IMG/VR virus record: IMGVR_UViG_3300025293_000046
Span: 1 to 23,397 of that record
Direction: 5' to 3' (one strand)
Origin: a virus
Length of the DNA: 23,397 nucleotides
A program made the translations under genes and the position numbers. The notes beneath the pieces are model-generated. The model had not been told where the DNA came from and made no database searches. It worked only from the letters and a program-made list of their open reading frames with translations. This document shows positions 5,055 through 11,036 of the stretch, piece by piece; position 1 is the first letter of the stretch, and every line of letters starts with the position of its first letter.

Positions 5055-7897
5055 TAGCTTACCCTCTGGTATATTGGTCTGTATTCCACTGCCACATCAT
5101 TGATCTGGACACCTTCTGAACTTCCAGTATCATTCGTAGCGTTCACGATCTTAAATCTTATACTCTGGCAGGATATAGGACTACTGGGCTTTGCCCGAAC
5201 CTGTTTCCAGCCAGAACCCCCGCCAGCGAAGTCACCTGTAAGCTGGTTTGAAAAGCTAGTACCGCCGTCAGTATCATAAAATATGGGTTGTGTCTGGTCA
5301 TTATCACTCTTATATGTTAGTGTTACACCATATATTTTCTTTTTCCTACCCGGTTCACCAAAGTCAATATCCTTTGTAGTGACTACGAACTTGTCCTCTC
5401 CCACAGAACGCATGGAATCTGTCCATTCTTTAATCTCGTAGGCATCAGATGTGGAGTTCCAAGTATTGCTTGTCTGTCCTTCCCATGCTGTGTCAGATGA
5501 CCAATACAGGTCACCAGTAAGCAATGTCTGGTATACAGATGTAGTATTACTGTTCCAATCTACTACCATGTTGGCCCTATTATAGTTATCATCAAATGCT
5601 GATTGACCCTTGATCCACGACTGCGTCCTGAAATCATATATATATACATCTCCCGCATCAGCAAAGGCGTTCTTCAGGACAATGAGATAATAGCGCCTTG
5701 GGTTATACCCGATCAATGTATCACGTCTAAAGTAGGTCTGCCATGTAGATTCCTTGATCCTGTTGAATAAAAGATTTGTCACGTTTTGACCATCATATAG
5801 GTATACACCGAACTTGTTAACCCAGCACACACCAAACTCTGTCTTGGTAGAGGCATAAGGATGTTCAATCCCTACCAAGTCCTTAATATCCTCAACATAC
5901 CAGTTGGATGGTGACGGAGAAGCGATATTAATGATATAGAGTTTCCGGTTCTTAAAGGCTAGTAATCGGTCTGAGAACTCTTCCAGCTTGGTAAACTCCT
6001 CAGCATCGCCCTTTACCACATCAATGAAGTAGCTTCTAGGGAACGTATCAAACTTACCGATAGGCGTATACATGATCCGGTCACGCATCTGAACAGTCTC
6101 ACTGTCCTCATTTACCGTCTTCATGTTTGCCACAAAGGCACGTCTATTAGCCACTATGGCAGTTTTAAAGCCTTCACCAGTACCGGAAATGGTTAATTGT
6201 TCATTAGCGTCTTTATTAGCCGGGAAGCTATTAAGAATTTCATAAGTCTCAAGGGCTGGGGAAGGAACGATGACTGTATCCACTTTCATATTAATACCAG
6301 AGTCCACTACCCACGGAGAATATTCACCGCTTAGACTTCCCCTGACGCCATCTCGAAGGCTAATGTCCAACAGCAAAGCCCACGGATCAGAGGTGGTATT
6401 TATTCTAGTATAAATACGAGCACCGGATATCCTTGGATTAAAAGAACCTGCGGAATTAGCATCAGTTAAAGCGGCTCTTACATCTATATCAAGAGAATCC
6501 AGTGATGTGGCGGCAAAAGTATTGTTAGATGATGGTATGAAAAGGAATGATTCCTGATGGCCATCATATATAAAACTTGCGGCAATCTGATATGTCTCAC
6601 TTGCCCACGTACCGGCTGGAGATGTGGGACTTTCAACCTTTAACTTGAATCCAGCTCCAGCTTCAGGATAATTTGAAGCGTGTATGTCACATTCCGTAGG
6701 TGGGGATAGAGTATTATTATCATCGTGCCAATCGTCAAAACCGTAAAATGTCAGAGATACATTATCAAGGTTGAATGCGGCATTGGTTGACGAGCCTGTA
6801 ATTCCTATAGTAAAAGCACCAGCCGATGACTTGGTCTTGTAATATATACTTGTCGTAGCGTCTGACATGGTCAAATCTGTTGAAGTAGCGGCATGGGCTG
6901 TTGTGATAGAAGCCTGTAAAGTCGCCGAACTACCAAGATTTAATCCTGACATTGTATATGTAAACTTGTAGATGGCGTTGGGAATGGTCTCACCTATAGT
7001 CATCTCAGCCACTGCCTGAACTAAAGTGGCGGGGCTTGCATGGTGAGCATAGCTTGCATCTGTTGCATCCAGAGTCCACCCATTACCTCCTGTCCAATTA
7101 GAACTAAAATTGCCCGTATTGGCTAGGTGTTCCATTGATCCGGAGATGTCCTGAAAGGGACGACGATTGATGTAACCGTACCACTTATTCTGGATACTGG
7201 AACCGAATGCGGCGTCTGAGACCCTGAGAGCTTCATCGGCGAAATAAAATACACCCTGTGTCAATCTGGTAATTGTAACATCACCATCTTCATCGTCCTC
7301 GTCAGTAAGTACCCCGCTGTGATCCAAGGTTAATACAAGTTCGGAGACAGTTCTTACACGCAGACCGTTGAAATTGTTATTGGTCACATCAGTACAACCC
7401 GAGATTCCTATGATGTCACCTTTTCTAAACCCCTGAGTTATAAAATTAACTGAGCCGGCATCTGCTGTAATGGTGTCATAACCATCAGCATTGCCAGCAA
7501 AAGCCAGTTCATCTGAACTAAAAGCTCCCGAGGTGGATGCCGCACCCATATCAAATATCCCAGACTGAAAAGAATCACTACCAAGATCATAAAGATCAAC
7601 CTCTCCAGTTTTAGAATCAATGACTCCCAACCAGTTCTCACCAGTATCTAGAGCCCTAGGGCCACGTTCATGATCGGACTCAAAAATAAAGGCGCCATAG
7701 CCGGGACAGATATGTCCAGCCGTCCCACTGGGAACATCAGTATGTGCGGTATCCCCACCCATGGGACGTATAGACTTCCTATCTTCCAGTATGATATTCT
7801 CTACGTCAGACATCTCGTTCTCACCAATGTCACGTGGATCGAGAGCTGAGTTTAGACCACCGGAGAAATCATTAATGTTATAAAACGCTTTAGGCAT
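5054..7897 (-). CDS. Nozzle/tail-hub-like structural protein (947 aa)
   Basis: The N-terminus (NDFSGGLNSALDPRDIGENE...VENI...IRPMGG) has the F-x-GGLN...P..I...E...N....G...R.G layout that opens tail tubular protein B/nozzle and packaged-DNA stabilisation proteins of short-tailed phages. The rest is beta-rich, with many Tyr, Trp and Asp residues suggesting propeller-like blades (for example YVEDIKDLVGI and VYLYDGQNV). Residues about 255-390 look like an inserted galactose-binding-like beta-sandwich (NFSSNWTGGNGW ... FNLDNVSLTFYGF). Its ATG overlaps the lysozyme stop by 8 bases. T7 gp12 is about 800 aa, so 947 aa fits a nozzle plus an inserted domain. The assignment rests on the N-terminal motif and position. 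Confidence 0.65.
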   Translation of the reverse strand: MPKAFYNINDFSGGLNSALDPRDIGENEMSDVENIILEDRKSIRPMGGDTAHTDVPSGTAGHICPGYGAFIFESDHERGPRALDTGENWLGVIDSKTGEVDLYDLGSDSFQSGIFDMGAASTSGAFSSDELAFAGNADGYDTITADAGSVNFITQGFRKGDIIGISGCTDVTNNNFNGLRVRTVSELVLTLDHSGVLTDEDDEDGDVTITRLTQGVFYFADEALRVSDAAFGSSIQNKWYGYINRRPFQDISGSMEHLANTGNFSSNWTGGNGWTLDATDASYAHHASPATLVQAVAEMTIGETIPNAIYKFTYTMSGLNLGSSATLQASITTAHAATSTDLTMSDATTSIYYKTKSSAGAFTIGITGSSTNAAFNLDNVSLTFYGFDDWHDDNNTLSPPTECDIHASNYPEAGAGFKLKVESPTSPAGTWASETYQIAASFIYDGHQESFLFIPSSNNTFAATSLDSLDIDVRAALTDANSAGSFNPRISGARIYTRINTTSDPWALLLDISLRDGVRGSLSGEYSPWVVDSGINMKVDTVIVPSPALETYEILNSFPANKDANEQLTISGTGEGFKTAIVANRRAFVANMKTVNEDSETVQMRDRIMYTPIGKFDTFPRSYFIDVVKGDAEEFTKLEEFSDRLLAFKNRKLYIINIASPSPSNWYVEDIKDLVGIEHPYASTKTEFGVCWVNKFGVYLYDGQNVTNLLFNRIKESTWQTYFRRDTLIGYNPRRYYLIVLKNAFADAGDVYIYDFRTQSWIKGQSAFDDNYNRANMVVDWNSNTTSVYQTLLTGDLYWSSDTAWEGQTSNTWNSTSDAYEIKEWTDSMRSVGEDKFVVTTKDIDFGEPGRKKKIYGVTLTYKSDNDQTQPIFYDTDGGTSFSNQLTGDFAGGGSGWKQVRAKPSSPISCQSIRFKIVNATNDTGSSEGVQINDVAVEYRPIYQRVS

Positions 7898-8363
7898 GCA
7901 TTGCTCTCTTTACCCAACCATAATAATATTTTTCCAGCTCAGGCCTTGTAAGAGCCAGTCTGGCGTACTCCATGATCCGGTAAGCCCTTAACCTATCAGA
8001 CTCCAGCCTAGCAGTCGCCTTGATGGTGTTAGGGCCTACCTTCCCATCTACTTTTATCTTGTCCTTATTCTTCCCGTTACAGGCACGTTGAAGTATCTTG
8101 GAGGACTTGGCTATACCCTGATTGACCACCATGTCAAAGTACTGGCCCTGTAGTTTGTCGGGCAACCTCTCAATCTTGGCGGGTAACCAGTAATCATCTT
8201 TGTACAGTTCCACAGCGTCATCCACTGTCAGGTTCTCAATGTCAACATTCGGATACGCCTTCTTGGAAATACCGTACTTGGTCTCCCCGCCGGGATCATC
8301 AGGGTCATTTACATAACCACCTTCCCGTTCAATAACTTTCTTTATCTCTTGATAAAACGGCAT
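7890..8363 (-). CDS. Endolysin: GH108-type muramidase with C-terminal peptidoglycan-binding domain (157 aa)
   Basis: Cuts the glycan backbone of peptidoglycan at lysis. Residues 12-32 carry the GH108 signature E-G-G-Y-V-N-D-P-D-D-P-G-G-E-T-K-Y-G-I-S, with Glu14 as the likely catalytic acid. Residues about 80-157 (DMVVNQG...QRACN...VDGKVGPNTIKA...RPELEKYYYGWVKR) match the PG_binding_3 type that usually follows. The length (about 160-180 aa) is normal. I start at the ATG at 8361-8363, because the frame upstream covers the 50-aa gene in another frame and this ATG makes a TAATG junction with it. There is no signal peptide, so release should need a holin from the genes just upstream. Confidence 0.9.
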   Translation of the reverse strand: MPFYQEIKKVIEREGGYVNDPDDPGGETKYGISKKAYPNVDIENLTVDDAVELYKDDYWLPAKIERLPDKLQGQYFDMVVNQGIAKSSKILQRACNGKNKDKIKVDGKVGPNTIKATARLESDRLRAYRIMEYARLALTRPELEKYYYGWVKRAMHA

Positions 8364-8515
8364 TATTTTTTCTTCATTACCTTTATGCCTGTCAAAACTT
8401 TCTTCACAGACGCCCAAATTAAGTCGTCCATTTTGCTCGGTGACATGGCGACGACTTTGTCTACCACCATCACGCCGATTGTAACTATTTGCCAATTCTC
8501 TACTACCCAGTCCAT
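8363..8515 (-). CDS. Small membrane-associated protein before the endolysin (50 aa)
   Basis: Reads MDWVVENWQIVTIGVMVVDK and ends in KVMKKK. It is preceded by a strong GGGAGG ribosome site 6 bases before its ATG at 8513-8515. Its stop overlaps the endolysin ATG as TAATG. The hydrophobic stretch at residues 9-24 is followed by an amphipathic helix and a basic tail. From memory, similar short proteins (N-terminal Trp, hydrophobic stretch, DKVV.MSP) commonly sit next to phage lysozymes. A holin-like or lysis-accessory role is plausible but not shown. Confidence 0.75.
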   Translation of the reverse strand: MDWVVENWQIVTIGVMVVDKVVAMSPSKMDDLIWASVKKVLTGIKVMKKK

Positions 8516-8532
8516 TATAGACCTCCCATTGT

Positions 8533-8745
8533 TTATTTATATAATATCCAAGCTGAAGGATCAGCGGTATTATCTTCCGGCTCTTTCGGGCTGACAATTT
8601 TGTCATTTTTATCATATCCTTCCCAACTGCATCCCTCATAGAAGAACATCACAAAAGCACAAACGAAACACATCCCAAGCACCGTTGCAAAAGTGTTCCC
8701 GAACTTCTGATTCCAATTCTCCATATCCTTAATATCTTTATTCAT
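8533..8745 (-). CDS. Single-pass membrane protein of the lysis region (70 aa)
   Basis: Starts MNKDIKDMENWNQKFGN at an ATG overlapping the upstream 18-aa ORF stop (ATGA). Residues 18-37 form one hydrophobic segment (FATVLGMCFVCAFVMFFYEG) with two cysteines, followed by a polar acidic C-terminal tail ending ILYK. The cysteine after the helix does not sit in a convincing lipobox. Position among coiled-coil membrane proteins and before the endolysin suggests a lysis-accessory or holin/spanin-like part. No family is recognised. Confidence 0.65.
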   Translation of the reverse strand: MNKDIKDMENWNQKFGNTFATVLGMCFVCAFVMFFYEGCSWEGYDKNDKIVSPKEPEDNTADPSAWILYK

Positions 8746-8798
8746 TTACACTCGCAATTCTCACATTCACAATTTTCACAATCACATTCATTAGTCAT
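8742..8798 (-). CDS. Cysteine-rich 18-residue microprotein
   Basis: Reads MTNECDCENCECENCECK: six cysteines in 18 residues in a regular C-x-C-E-N-C spacing, like a minimal metallothionein or metal-binding peptide. Three things argue it is translated: an AGGAAG ribosome site over the stop of the upstream gene 10 bases before its ATG, an ATGA overlap with the next gene, and exact fit between two real genes. The alternative is a leader that merely couples translation of the next membrane protein. Metal binding is inferred from composition only. Confidence 0.55.
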   Translation of the reverse strand: MTNECDCENCECENCECK

Positions 8799-8812
8799 TT
8801 TAATTACACTTC

Positions 8813-9094
8813 CTATCGTTTTCTTATTCCAATTTTTTCCAATAAAGATTTATTCTCTTGTATAAGCTCTTCGTTATGATGCTCAATCTCTTCTACATGC
8901 TCTTTTTCCATCTGGTCTAGCCTCATCTGTATCCCTACTATCTCATCGTGTATCTGCGTTATCCTAGCCCCGTGGTCATCAAGTGTGCTACTGACTTTAA
9001 AATAAGAAGCCGTAAGCAAAACAGAAGCTGTGATAATCTGTATAAGCCACTTGATATTGATGTTGACATGAAGGCTATCATTGAGACTAGTCAT
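8813..9094 (-). CDS. N-terminal membrane anchor plus coiled coil, i-spanin-like (93 aa)
   Basis: Starts MTSLNDSLHVNINIK by an ATGA overlap with the preceding gene. Residues 14-32 are one transmembrane helix (IKWLIQIITASVLLTASYF). Residues 36-90 are a heptad-like charged helix (HDEIVGIQMRLDQMEKEHVEEI), ending KIGIRKR. One N-terminal helix followed by a periplasmic coiled coil is the layout of Rz-type inner-membrane spanins, and the gene is in the right place. No partner Rz1 nested in another frame was recognised, although a lipoprotein lies upstream at 10563-11036. Holin-associated proteins of similar layout are an alternative. Confidence 0.65.
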   Translation of the reverse strand: MTSLNDSLHVNINIKWLIQIITASVLLTASYFKVSSTLDDHGARITQIHDEIVGIQMRLDQMEKEHVEEIEHHNEELIQENKSLLEKIGIRKR

Positions 9095-9342
9095 TTCCCA
9101 AATACTACACTGCTAACCAGAGCAAGAACAGAGCCAAGAATAACACCAACAATCGAACCAAGCCCCCGAAGCCACGATACCTGCTTCGCAAGTTCAGATT
9201 GACGCACATCCATTCGTCCAAGATTTTCCTTAATCCATTCGACATCATTACGTACGACGGATAAATCAGATTTTAAACTTTCTCTCCACTCAGTCAATTC
9301 AGCATTGTTCATCAGTATCTTGCCCAACATAAGTCCAACCAT
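9091..9342 (-). CDS. XhlA-like coiled coil with C-terminal membrane helix (83 aa)
   Basis: Residues 14-56 are a charged helix (ELTEWRESLKSDLSVVRNDV ... ELAKQVSW) followed by a transmembrane helix at 59-81 (GLGSIVGVILGSVLALVSSV) and a short FGK tail. This is the layout of the haemolysin XhlA family, which works with holins in host lysis. The start is uncertain: ATGs at codons 1, 5 and 11 all lack a strong ribosome site. I kept the first, which lies 15 bases after the stop of the two-helix candidate upstream. Its stop overlaps the next start as ATGA. Confidence 0.7.
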   Translation of the reverse strand: MVGLMLGKILMNNAELTEWRESLKSDLSVVRNDVEWIKENLGRMDVRQSELAKQVSWLRGLGSIVGVILGSVLALVSSVVFGK

Positions 9343-9357
9343 CTGGAAAACTAGTTT

Positions 9358-9534
9358 TCACTTCTTGCTCCACGTCGTCCACGAAAATCCATTTTGTTTT
9401 AGGTGGCGTTGACACGTATAAATCAATAGAGTTATGAGTACTCCCCAGAACACGTGTGGTGCTACCTGTTTTACCGATACCAGTATCATGGCACCGACAA
9501 CTGCAATCGCACACGCTGTCACTGGGTCTTTCAT
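9358..9534 (-). CDS. Two-helix membrane protein, holin candidate (58 aa)
   Basis: Reads MKDPVTACAIAVVGAMILVS, then VKQVAPHVFWGVLITLLIYTC and a basic tail ending TTWSKK. Two hydrophobic segments (about 5-21 and 25-41) joined by a very short turn, plus a charged C-terminus, are typical of small holins. Its ATG makes the TAATG junction with the preceding gene that is standard here. A longer same-strand frame (9299-9541, 80 aa, Cys/Asp-rich) overlaps it. I prefer this frame for its clear membrane pattern and junction. Holin function is inferred from topology and context. Confidence 0.7.
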   Translation of the reverse strand: MKDPVTACAIAVVGAMILVSVKQVAPHVFWGVLITLLIYTCQRHLKQNGFSWTTWSKK

Positions 9535-10022
9535 TAATCATTGCTTCTTAATCTCTCTACTTCTTTTTCAAGAGTATCAATTCTAAACACATTAGCCTGT
9601 ATATCAGCCTGTAGTGCATACCACATACCTAGCAGGGATATAAGACCAGTCACAGCCGCCACCATAGTTTGGATTGACAACGTGAATTTTTTTTTAAGTA
9701 TCTCCTCATCAGGCACAGGTAGTGTAGTAGGTAGTGGTGCTACCTTAGCCACAACCGGCTTAGGAGTAATCTTCTTCTGTAAAATTTGTTTCTGTAATAA
9801 CCTGTCACGCTTTGACTTTTCTCTTTCAGACTGTGCTTCCTTAGCTTCCTCTAGCATGACCCCTGTTAAATCTTCTACTGTGACATACCCAGCGGCAACT
9901 AGAATCTCTCCCAACTTTCTATCATCACCATTAGACTGCTTATTAATAGCCTCATTAAGCTGTCGCTTAGTGATAATGTCAGCATCCATTAATAGACTGC
10001 CGAGCTTAGTCTTATGACCCAT
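9534..10022 (-). CDS. MshEN/GspE-N-like domain on a membrane anchor (162 aa)
   Basis: From the ATG at 10020-10022 the protein begins MGHKTKLGSLL. Residues 6-29 and 36-59 are two tandem copies of K-L-G-x-x-L-x(4)-I/V-T-x(3)-L-x(3)-I/M, the repeat of the N-terminal domain of GspE/PilB/MshE ATPases, which binds cyclic-di-GMP in MshE. The first copy has Asp15 where Gly is usual; the second keeps Gly45. Then come a charged helix (60-85), a Pro/Val linker (86-104), one transmembrane helix (about 115-137) and a C-terminal coiled coil (IDTLEKEVERLRS). There is no ATPase domain. It overlaps the H-NOX gene by 11 bases and the holin candidate by one. Ligand binding is unproven, and it could be a plain structural use of the fold. 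Confidence 0.7.
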   Translation of the reverse strand: MGHKTKLGSLLMDADIITKRQLNEAINKQSNGDDRKLGEILVAAGYVTVEDLTGVMLEEAKEAQSEREKSKRDRLLQKQILQKKITPKPVVAKVAPLPTTLPVPDEEILKKKFTLSIQTMVAAVTGLISLLGMWYALQADIQANVFRIDTLEKEVERLRSND

Positions 10023-10563
10023 CGGTAAACTTGACCTCAAATACATCATGGTCATCAGTTCCTTTATACTCTATCTGAGTAATATCTGCTTCGCCACCGA
10101 AATGTTGAGCGATACCCTTTAGTGTGCCTATAGCCAAAGGAGCTAATCCATCCCTTGGGGACTCATAATGAATTTCAAAATGATTGTCTCCAAGCTTCTT
10201 TATTTCAAACGAGGGTGGAGCTAAGTTGGGTAACATCTCTGCTATCCTAACATGCATCTCATCCAGTCCCTCTACAAAGGTTTCAAAGTCGTGCCCAAAT
10301 GCATTGAAGTAATCTCCATAACCTTTTGGCGCTACATCCGTTGCCCAATACACGCCAAACATCTCTAAGACGTCTGATGCCGGCACCCCCAATATCTCTG
10401 ACGTAGCCCCAACAAGTGAGTATGTAACGGAATCATCATACCCTTCCATACTATCAAATACATCCTCTCCTACTCCAGAGGTTTCAAGTACTTGTTCCCA
10501 TACCTCATCGCCAGCCTCTCTTGTGACTAAGGTTCGGATAGCTTCGTTAATCATTCCGTACAT
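10012..10563 (-). CDS. hnoX: H-NOX haem nitric-oxide/oxygen-binding sensor protein (183 aa)
   Basis: A complete stand-alone H-NOX (HNOB) domain, which binds haem and senses NO, or O2 in some members. From the ATG at 10561-10563 it starts MYGMINEAIRTLV, the family's N-terminus. Visible hallmarks are YDDSVTYSLV...SEILGV (42-60), F-G-x-Y-W (69-73), LDEMHVRI with the proximal haem ligand His104, Pro117, and the Y133-x-S135-x-R137 haem-propionate motif. It ends HDVFEVKF. The length of about 183 matches family members. The site of the O2-stabilising distal Tyr seems to hold Pro142, suggesting NO selectivity. The start overlaps the lipoprotein stop (TAATG) and the end overlaps the MshEN-like gene. 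No output domain is fused, so it must act on a partner. Confidence 0.93.
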   Translation of the reverse strand: MYGMINEAIRTLVTREAGDEVWEQVLETSGVGEDVFDSMEGYDDSVTYSLVGATSEILGVPASDVLEMFGVYWATDVAPKGYGDYFNAFGHDFETFVEGLDEMHVRIAEMLPNLAPPSFEIKKLGDNHFEIHYESPRDGLAPLAIGTLKGIAQHFGGEADITQIEYKGTDDHDVFEVKFTDGS

Positions 10564-11036
10564 TACTTGTATTCCAATTCCATTGTGTATGATACTACAA
10601 CATCTGTGGGCCAATCATCTGTTGCCCATCTCTGTTTAGAAAAAAACTCTCCATGACTATAGCTAAATGGAAGAATCCAATCTCTAGCATTATCAGGCCA
10701 AGGAACATAATATGTCTTATCCATTACATCACCCCCATTCATATCATCGTTCCACTTAATGATGTGACCAGTAAGAAAAACAGAATCAACAAAAGATGAA
10801 TCCAGTTTCGTGACAGCATACCAGTAGCCGAGTTCCAAGCTGTCTGTACCATACGGGTAGAGTGTAGCATCTGATGTTATCCCAAAAGATGCTTCGCTTT
10901 CAACATATGAAGTATCATGGACTTGAACATAGAGCGTATCCCTTATCTCATAGATTTCGGGAATGTATACTATCTCTGGCTCTAATTGACATCCGAGAAG
11001 TATGAGTGGAAGAATCCATTTAAGCGGCTTTAGCAA
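10563..11036 (-). CDS. Predicted lipoprotein (157 aa)
   Basis: Reads MLKPLKWILPLILLGCQLEP, a short basic n-region, a hydrophobic core and the lipobox L-L-G-C with Cys16 as the lipidated residue. Glu19 is not an inner-membrane retention Asp at +2 (that position is Gln). The mature part is acidic and beta-rich (IVYIPEIYEIRDTLYVQVHD, then repeated Tyr/Asp/Trp strands). The start is a TTG at 11034-11036 inside the end of the preceding gene; no in-frame ATG precedes the signal sequence, so TTG is the best fit. Its stop overlaps the H-NOX ATG. Candidate roles are superinfection exclusion, an outer-membrane spanin partner or a partner of the H-NOX. None is shown by the sequence. Confidence 0.75.
   Translation of the reverse strand: MLKPLKWILPLILLGCQLEPEIVYIPEIYEIRDTLYVQVHDTSYVESEASFGITSDATLYPYGTDSLELGYWYAVTKLDSSFVDSVFLTGHIIKWNDDMNGGDVMDKTYYVPWPDNARDWILPFSYSHGEFFSKQRWATDDWPTDVVVSYTMELEYK

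Follow-up and report, generated by a model that had tools for sequence, protein, structure and literature searches.

Cellular gas sensing is the known role of H-NOX proteins, and in bacteria their genes usually adjoin kinases or DGC/PDE c-di-GMP enzymes, through which they act (PMC8738867). The closest described systems to the locus reported here are the bacterial stand-alone H-NOX proteins, such as Nostoc Alr2278 (Ns H-NOX) and the members of kinase or DGC/PDE operons. The H-NOX encoded in the window, by which the whole analysed stretch of 23,397 nt is meant (IMG/VR record IMGVR_UViG_3300025293_000046), has the fold, the haem-site residues and the length in common with them and likewise adjoins a putative signalling partner. 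Unlike them, it is encoded by a phage, belongs to a separate clade (support 98/98) and contains no Cys, and its partner, a small MshEN-TM protein, is neither a kinase nor a DGC/PDE enzyme nor a chemoreceptor.

The partner itself is comparable to the MshEN/GSPII-N domains (V. cholerae MshE, T. thermophilus PilF GSPII-B, and E. coli NfrB), with which it shares two 24-residue RLG...L...Q motifs and the four-helix fold. It differs from them in having the N-terminal subdomain only, a 6-residue spacer and some changed ligand positions, and what follows it is a single TM segment and a coiled coil, in place of the ATPase or glycosyltransferase to which MshEN/GSPII-N domains are fused. Phage genes dealing with NO are also represented by nirK/norB of a marine virus (PMC8115048), but these encode enzymes, whereas a sensor-type protein is encoded here. 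Like phage morons and exchangeable cassettes, the locus occupies a constant site, with resident genes on either side, as a discrete segment that close relatives lack; unlike morons, it carries a putative gas sensor together with a membrane partner.

The H-NOX open reading frame runs on the minus strand from an ATG at 10563 to a stop ending at 10012 (Table 1). Its product matches the HNOB profile (PF07700) with 158.5 bits against the Pfam cut-off of 25.5 bits (E 1.8e-46, profile positions 1-162 of 163), the closest solved structure in a PDB search is the Nostoc Alr2278 H-NOX (E 3e-47), and the AlphaFold model (pLDDT 80.8) resembles the Nostoc H-NOX structure 2o09 in Foldseek (TM-score 0.90, E 2e-17). 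Chance is thus excluded as the source of the match, and the full-length H-NOX domain proposed in the preliminary description is confirmed by both profile and predicted fold. The gene is overlapped from both sides, as that description had also stated; it shares 1 nt with the upstream gene (TAATG) and 11 nt with the downstream one, given a start of the latter at 10022. Its phage setting is borne out by terminase, P22-like portal, SU10-like capsid, tail spike with S74 chaperone, and GH108 endolysin genes (Pfam, PHROG). In IMG/VR 14 contigs bear H-NOX of this kind, a number obtained with exact short peptide patterns, which rarer or more distant viral H-NOX may escape; a rescan with a diverse alignment returned the same 14 contigs. 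Recent bacterial contamination was considered and rejected, since phages of several types have the cassette embedded in phage genes, with a GC content of 0.42 for the cassette and 0.44 for the window.

Table 1. Features of the cassette and its surroundings in the window
Feature	Positions	Strand	Evidence or remark
Endolysin, GH108 + PG_binding_3	7890..8639	(-)	Pfam 5e-25 and 1.5e-10; PHROG 315 endolysin 6e-45
Three small one-TM proteins, 83, 93 and 70 aa	8533..9342	(-)	Hydropathy
80-aa protein	9299..9541	(-)	Resident gene downstream of insertion site; nucleotide similarity resumes here
Two-gene cassette, H-NOX + MshEN-TM protein	9534..10563	(-)	blastn, empty site
Partner protein, 162 aa	9534..10022	(-)	NF053729, profile search, Foldseek, hydropathy
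H-NOX (haem-NO-binding) protein, stand-alone, 183 aa	10012..10563	(-)	HNOB profile, structure, residues, dN/dS
157-aa protein, lipobox-like N-terminus (LLGC)	10563..11036	(-)	Resident gene upstream of insertion site

All haem-site residues named in the preliminary description, His104, Pro117 and Y133-E-S135-P-R137, are kept, and the same His, Pro and YxSxR positions are invariant across 13 bacterial relatives from many phyla (alignment A4). A distal Tyr is the mark of O2-binding H-NOX (PMC8738867). In the phage protein Tyr is present at positions 2, 42, 48, 72, 82, 85, 133, and 166 only, none of them in the helix following YxSxR. The distal Tyr of Tt H-NOX lies in the corresponding helix, and the phage protein may be selective for NO rather than O2. 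The haem-site motifs and the lack of Tyr in the helix after YxSxR make NO sensing by the phage H-NOX a fair expectation. Since Cys is absent from its 183 residues, redox sensing through Cys, as reported for the V. cholerae protein (PMC7108781), is precluded. The intact motifs are also compatible with a scavenging or protective role, in which H-NOX would be a haem sink lowering NO in the infected cell and the membrane protein would have another role, and the marine virus contig with nirK/norB makes NO chemistry in infected cells plausible (PMC8115048); however, H-NOX is a stoichiometric sensor and not an enzyme, and the linked c-di-GMP-motif protein would be left unexplained, so this role seems highly improbable.

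The phage H-NOX is, judging from dN/dS values of 0.02-0.16 wherever dS could be estimated, under strong purifying selection. The phage copies form a single clade, whose neighbours are one long-branched actinobacterial row of unsure placement and gammaproteobacterial proteins; in the gammaproteobacterial loci the gene adjoining H-NOX encodes a histidine kinase with an HNOBA region. No close bacterial donor was found, the best bacterial relatives being 44-48% identical to the phage H-NOX, and no MshEN-type gene stands beside H-NOX in 80 bacterial loci. Profile search of the phage records, which are contig fragments, covered HisKA, HNOBA and GGDEF and gave no match, and the positive control for HNOBA was detected.

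These data bear on the earlier interpretation, according to which the phage would either sense NO or interfere with host NO signalling. A real phage-borne H-NOX is supported, while interference became less favoured, because H-NOX comes with a conserved partner of its own and the contigs are without HisKA kinase, HNOBA or GGDEF. Such a mimic would bind a host kinase or c-di-GMP enzyme and fix host NO/c-di-GMP signalling, so that the host could, for example, be kept planktonic and metabolically active. It agrees with the way in which bacterial H-NOX acts, by means of neighbouring kinases or DGC/PDE enzymes (PMC8738867), and with the kinase partners with HNOBA retained in the nearest bacterial clade, and the same lack of kinases, HNOBA and GGDEF in phage contigs makes a host target possible. 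Nevertheless, a dedicated partner is always directly downstream and travels with H-NOX, whereas a pure decoy would need none, and identity of at most 48% to the bacterial relatives found is low for a protein that should imitate that of a particular host; we therefore regard the mimic as unlikely and prefer a sensor acting with its own partner.

That partner, as well as the mobile two-gene cassette, was overlooked in the first reading of the sequence. The protein is composed of an N-terminal MshEN-type c-di-GMP-motif domain (about 9858-10007), a linker, one TM segment predicted by hydropathy, and a long C-terminal helix interpreted as a coiled coil; its longest open reading frame begins at 10055, but the starts of homologues favour 10022. 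The NCBIfam model NF053729 (MshE-related cyclic di-GMP-binding motif) gives 47.7-49.7 bits at a cut-off of 38, which is exceeded in 12/12 phage records searched, and there is no significant Pfam match for the MshEN domain that NCBIfam and profile search did detect. The profile built from eight phage partner copies finds PilB (2e-11) and the c-di-GMP-bound MshE 5htl (2e-5), and Foldseek retrieves the c-di-GMP-bound 5htl and 8pfa at probability 1.00 and rmsd 1.1-1.2, but with E of 0.02-0.2, the AlphaFold model of the partner being confident in the MshEN domain only. With respect to a holin identity only a weak PHROG holin match was obtained (E 0.19). The partner gene adjoins H-NOX directly downstream in 11/11 other IMG/VR contigs that extend past H-NOX, the copies of L003 and L010 having been read from frames and not from gene-caller output.

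The MshEN motif consists of R9/K, L10, G11, L25, L29, Q32, R38/K, L39, G40, L54, L58, and Q61 with a 5-residue spacer (PMC5013675). At those positions the window copy has K, L, G, L, I, Q and K, L, G, L, M, E, and is degenerate: Lys replaces Arg twice, Gly18 is changed to Asp, the last Gln to Glu, and the spacer is of 6 residues instead of 5. Both motif Gln residues are kept in L006-L009 and L013, and the ligand positions, partly lost in the window copy, are well preserved in L006, L008, L009, and L013. In T. thermophilus PilF, c-di-GMP binding is compatible with Lys as the first motif residue and also with an N-terminal subdomain on its own, while one Gln-to-Glu change reduces the affinity 77- to 158-fold (PMC11731258). 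According to these ligand residues, and with the tolerance of PilF to Lys set against the loss caused by Gln-to-Glu, c-di-GMP binding is likely in some partner copies, and the window copy, for which this is less sure, may bind it.

The contigs bearing H-NOX span at least three phage backgrounds, namely, the window type, L004/L005 (L005 has a tape-measure-like gene), and the L006-L013 type, which is considered contractile-tailed because the L013 contig has baseplate wedge genes. In blastn comparison the DNA similarity of the window to L005 is the cassette only, that to L004 the cassette and two short pieces of 50 and 73 nt, and that to L008/L013 extends over H-NOX and the beginning of the partner gene, the first ~780 nt of the cassette. 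An empty site was found in the relatives L033 and L034, whose portal is 71% identical to that of the window phage; they align to the window through 10567 and resume at 9531, so that at this point the cassette and nothing else is missing; there an 84-aa open reading frame with one predicted TM segment occupies the site. The upstream resident protein is conserved in contigs both with and without the cassette, and proteins similar to the downstream one are encoded in L033, L034, and L056. Because DNA similarity is confined to the cassette and the empty site is exact, the pair is regarded as a mobile unit: on this comparative evidence, the H-NOX and MshEN-TM genes move together between unrelated phages as one cassette. 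The distances of H-NOX and partner proteins correlate as well (Mantel r 0.90, 0/5000 permutations).

The MshEN-TM gene is also present without H-NOX in L186 (10010-10585) and L187 (9986-10546), where the same thioredoxin-like gene follows, and these contigs may reflect a resident partner gene in front of which H-NOX was gained or lost. Since they have the partner without H-NOX, the MshEN-TM protein is presumably able to act alone. It could then be the functional unit, as a c-di-GMP sponge or a membrane effector, with H-NOX as an optional regulator in some phages, and in distant comparisons the MshEN half is indeed the more conserved part of the protein. On the other hand, both genes are gained or lost together in the window lineage and H-NOX is better conserved than its partner, which makes this order of roles decidedly unlikely. 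As a separate observation, the thioredoxin-fold proteins adjoining the cassette in contractile-tailed phages (L190:13216-13656 and L013:11205-11645) have a signal-like N-terminus and no CxxC.

We give about an even chance to the view that phages use the locus as a mobile sensor cassette of two genes, for an NO sensor and a membrane partner possibly reading c-di-GMP. A direct pair of H-NOX and membrane protein, with c-di-GMP as a possible second input, would be the simplest reading, because the MshEN-TM protein is the only constant neighbour and GGDEF, HisKA and HNOBA are lacking in the contig fragments, the adjacency of the two genes being short of proof of contact. According to this proposal the phage H-NOX would bind haem and report NO rather than O2; once NO is bound, H-NOX would interact differently with the cytosolic portion of its membrane partner, like the control of an operon partner by bacterial H-NOX; the MshEN domain would read or capture c-di-GMP; and the membrane protein, switched by both inputs, would make some envelope event during infection dependent on cellular NO and c-di-GMP. 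For the window phage the likeliest such event would be lysis timing, in view of the endolysin and small TM genes downstream. The whole chain, in which phages read NO and host c-di-GMP jointly via a mobile cassette and time lysis or another envelope event, so that an infection decision would be gated by NO and a second messenger, is offered tentatively and is regarded as rather unlikely.

With respect to lysis, the cassette occupies the position where relatives have small one-TM open reading frames, immediately upstream of the endolysin. The small one-TM proteins between cassette and endolysin (8533-9342) gave no convincing family match and are possible holin/spanin-type lysis accessories; related contigs shuffle small genes resembling this set. 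In the L006-L013 type the gene after the cassette is thioredoxin-like (L008 copy, Pfam 1.9e-8) and not a lysis gene. In the window phage the place of the cassette among small TM genes before the endolysin thus points weakly to an influence on lysis, because the cassette of contractile-tailed phages is not beside a recognised lysis gene.

Among isolate phages tblastn of 50,697 records gave only noise at E > 1 for H-NOX and no match for the partner, PHROGs had no match for H-NOX, and no description of a phage H-NOX was found among 5.39 million open-access papers. Thus, the H-NOX family is known, while its phage location and the MshEN-TM partner are new within the databases and literature searched. 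The locus points to nitric oxide sensing by some phages in the course of infection. If true, a diffusible gas, and perhaps a second messenger of the host, would be among the signals perceived by some phages while infecting; a new output type for H-NOX and a phage-encoded c-di-GMP-motif protein would be added; and viral lysis in natural waters would be linked, in a testable way, to denitrification or NO stress.

PADLOC gave no defence-system match. Several other genes were observed. The 69.5-kb H-NOX phage contig of record G006 has a match to Pfam DruA (Druantia; L189:10113-11315, E 2e-28), a tryptophan halogenase-like gene (L188:11846-13411, Pfam 2e-58), and, from L188:18437-20000 into L189 (G006:18437-21229), a gene for a secreted-looking protein of 930 aa with CarboxypepD_reg and TonB receptor plug domains, which is unusual in phage. 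L191 (1432-9543) encodes a protein of 2704 aa that combines PKD repeats with an intein/HINT-like domain.
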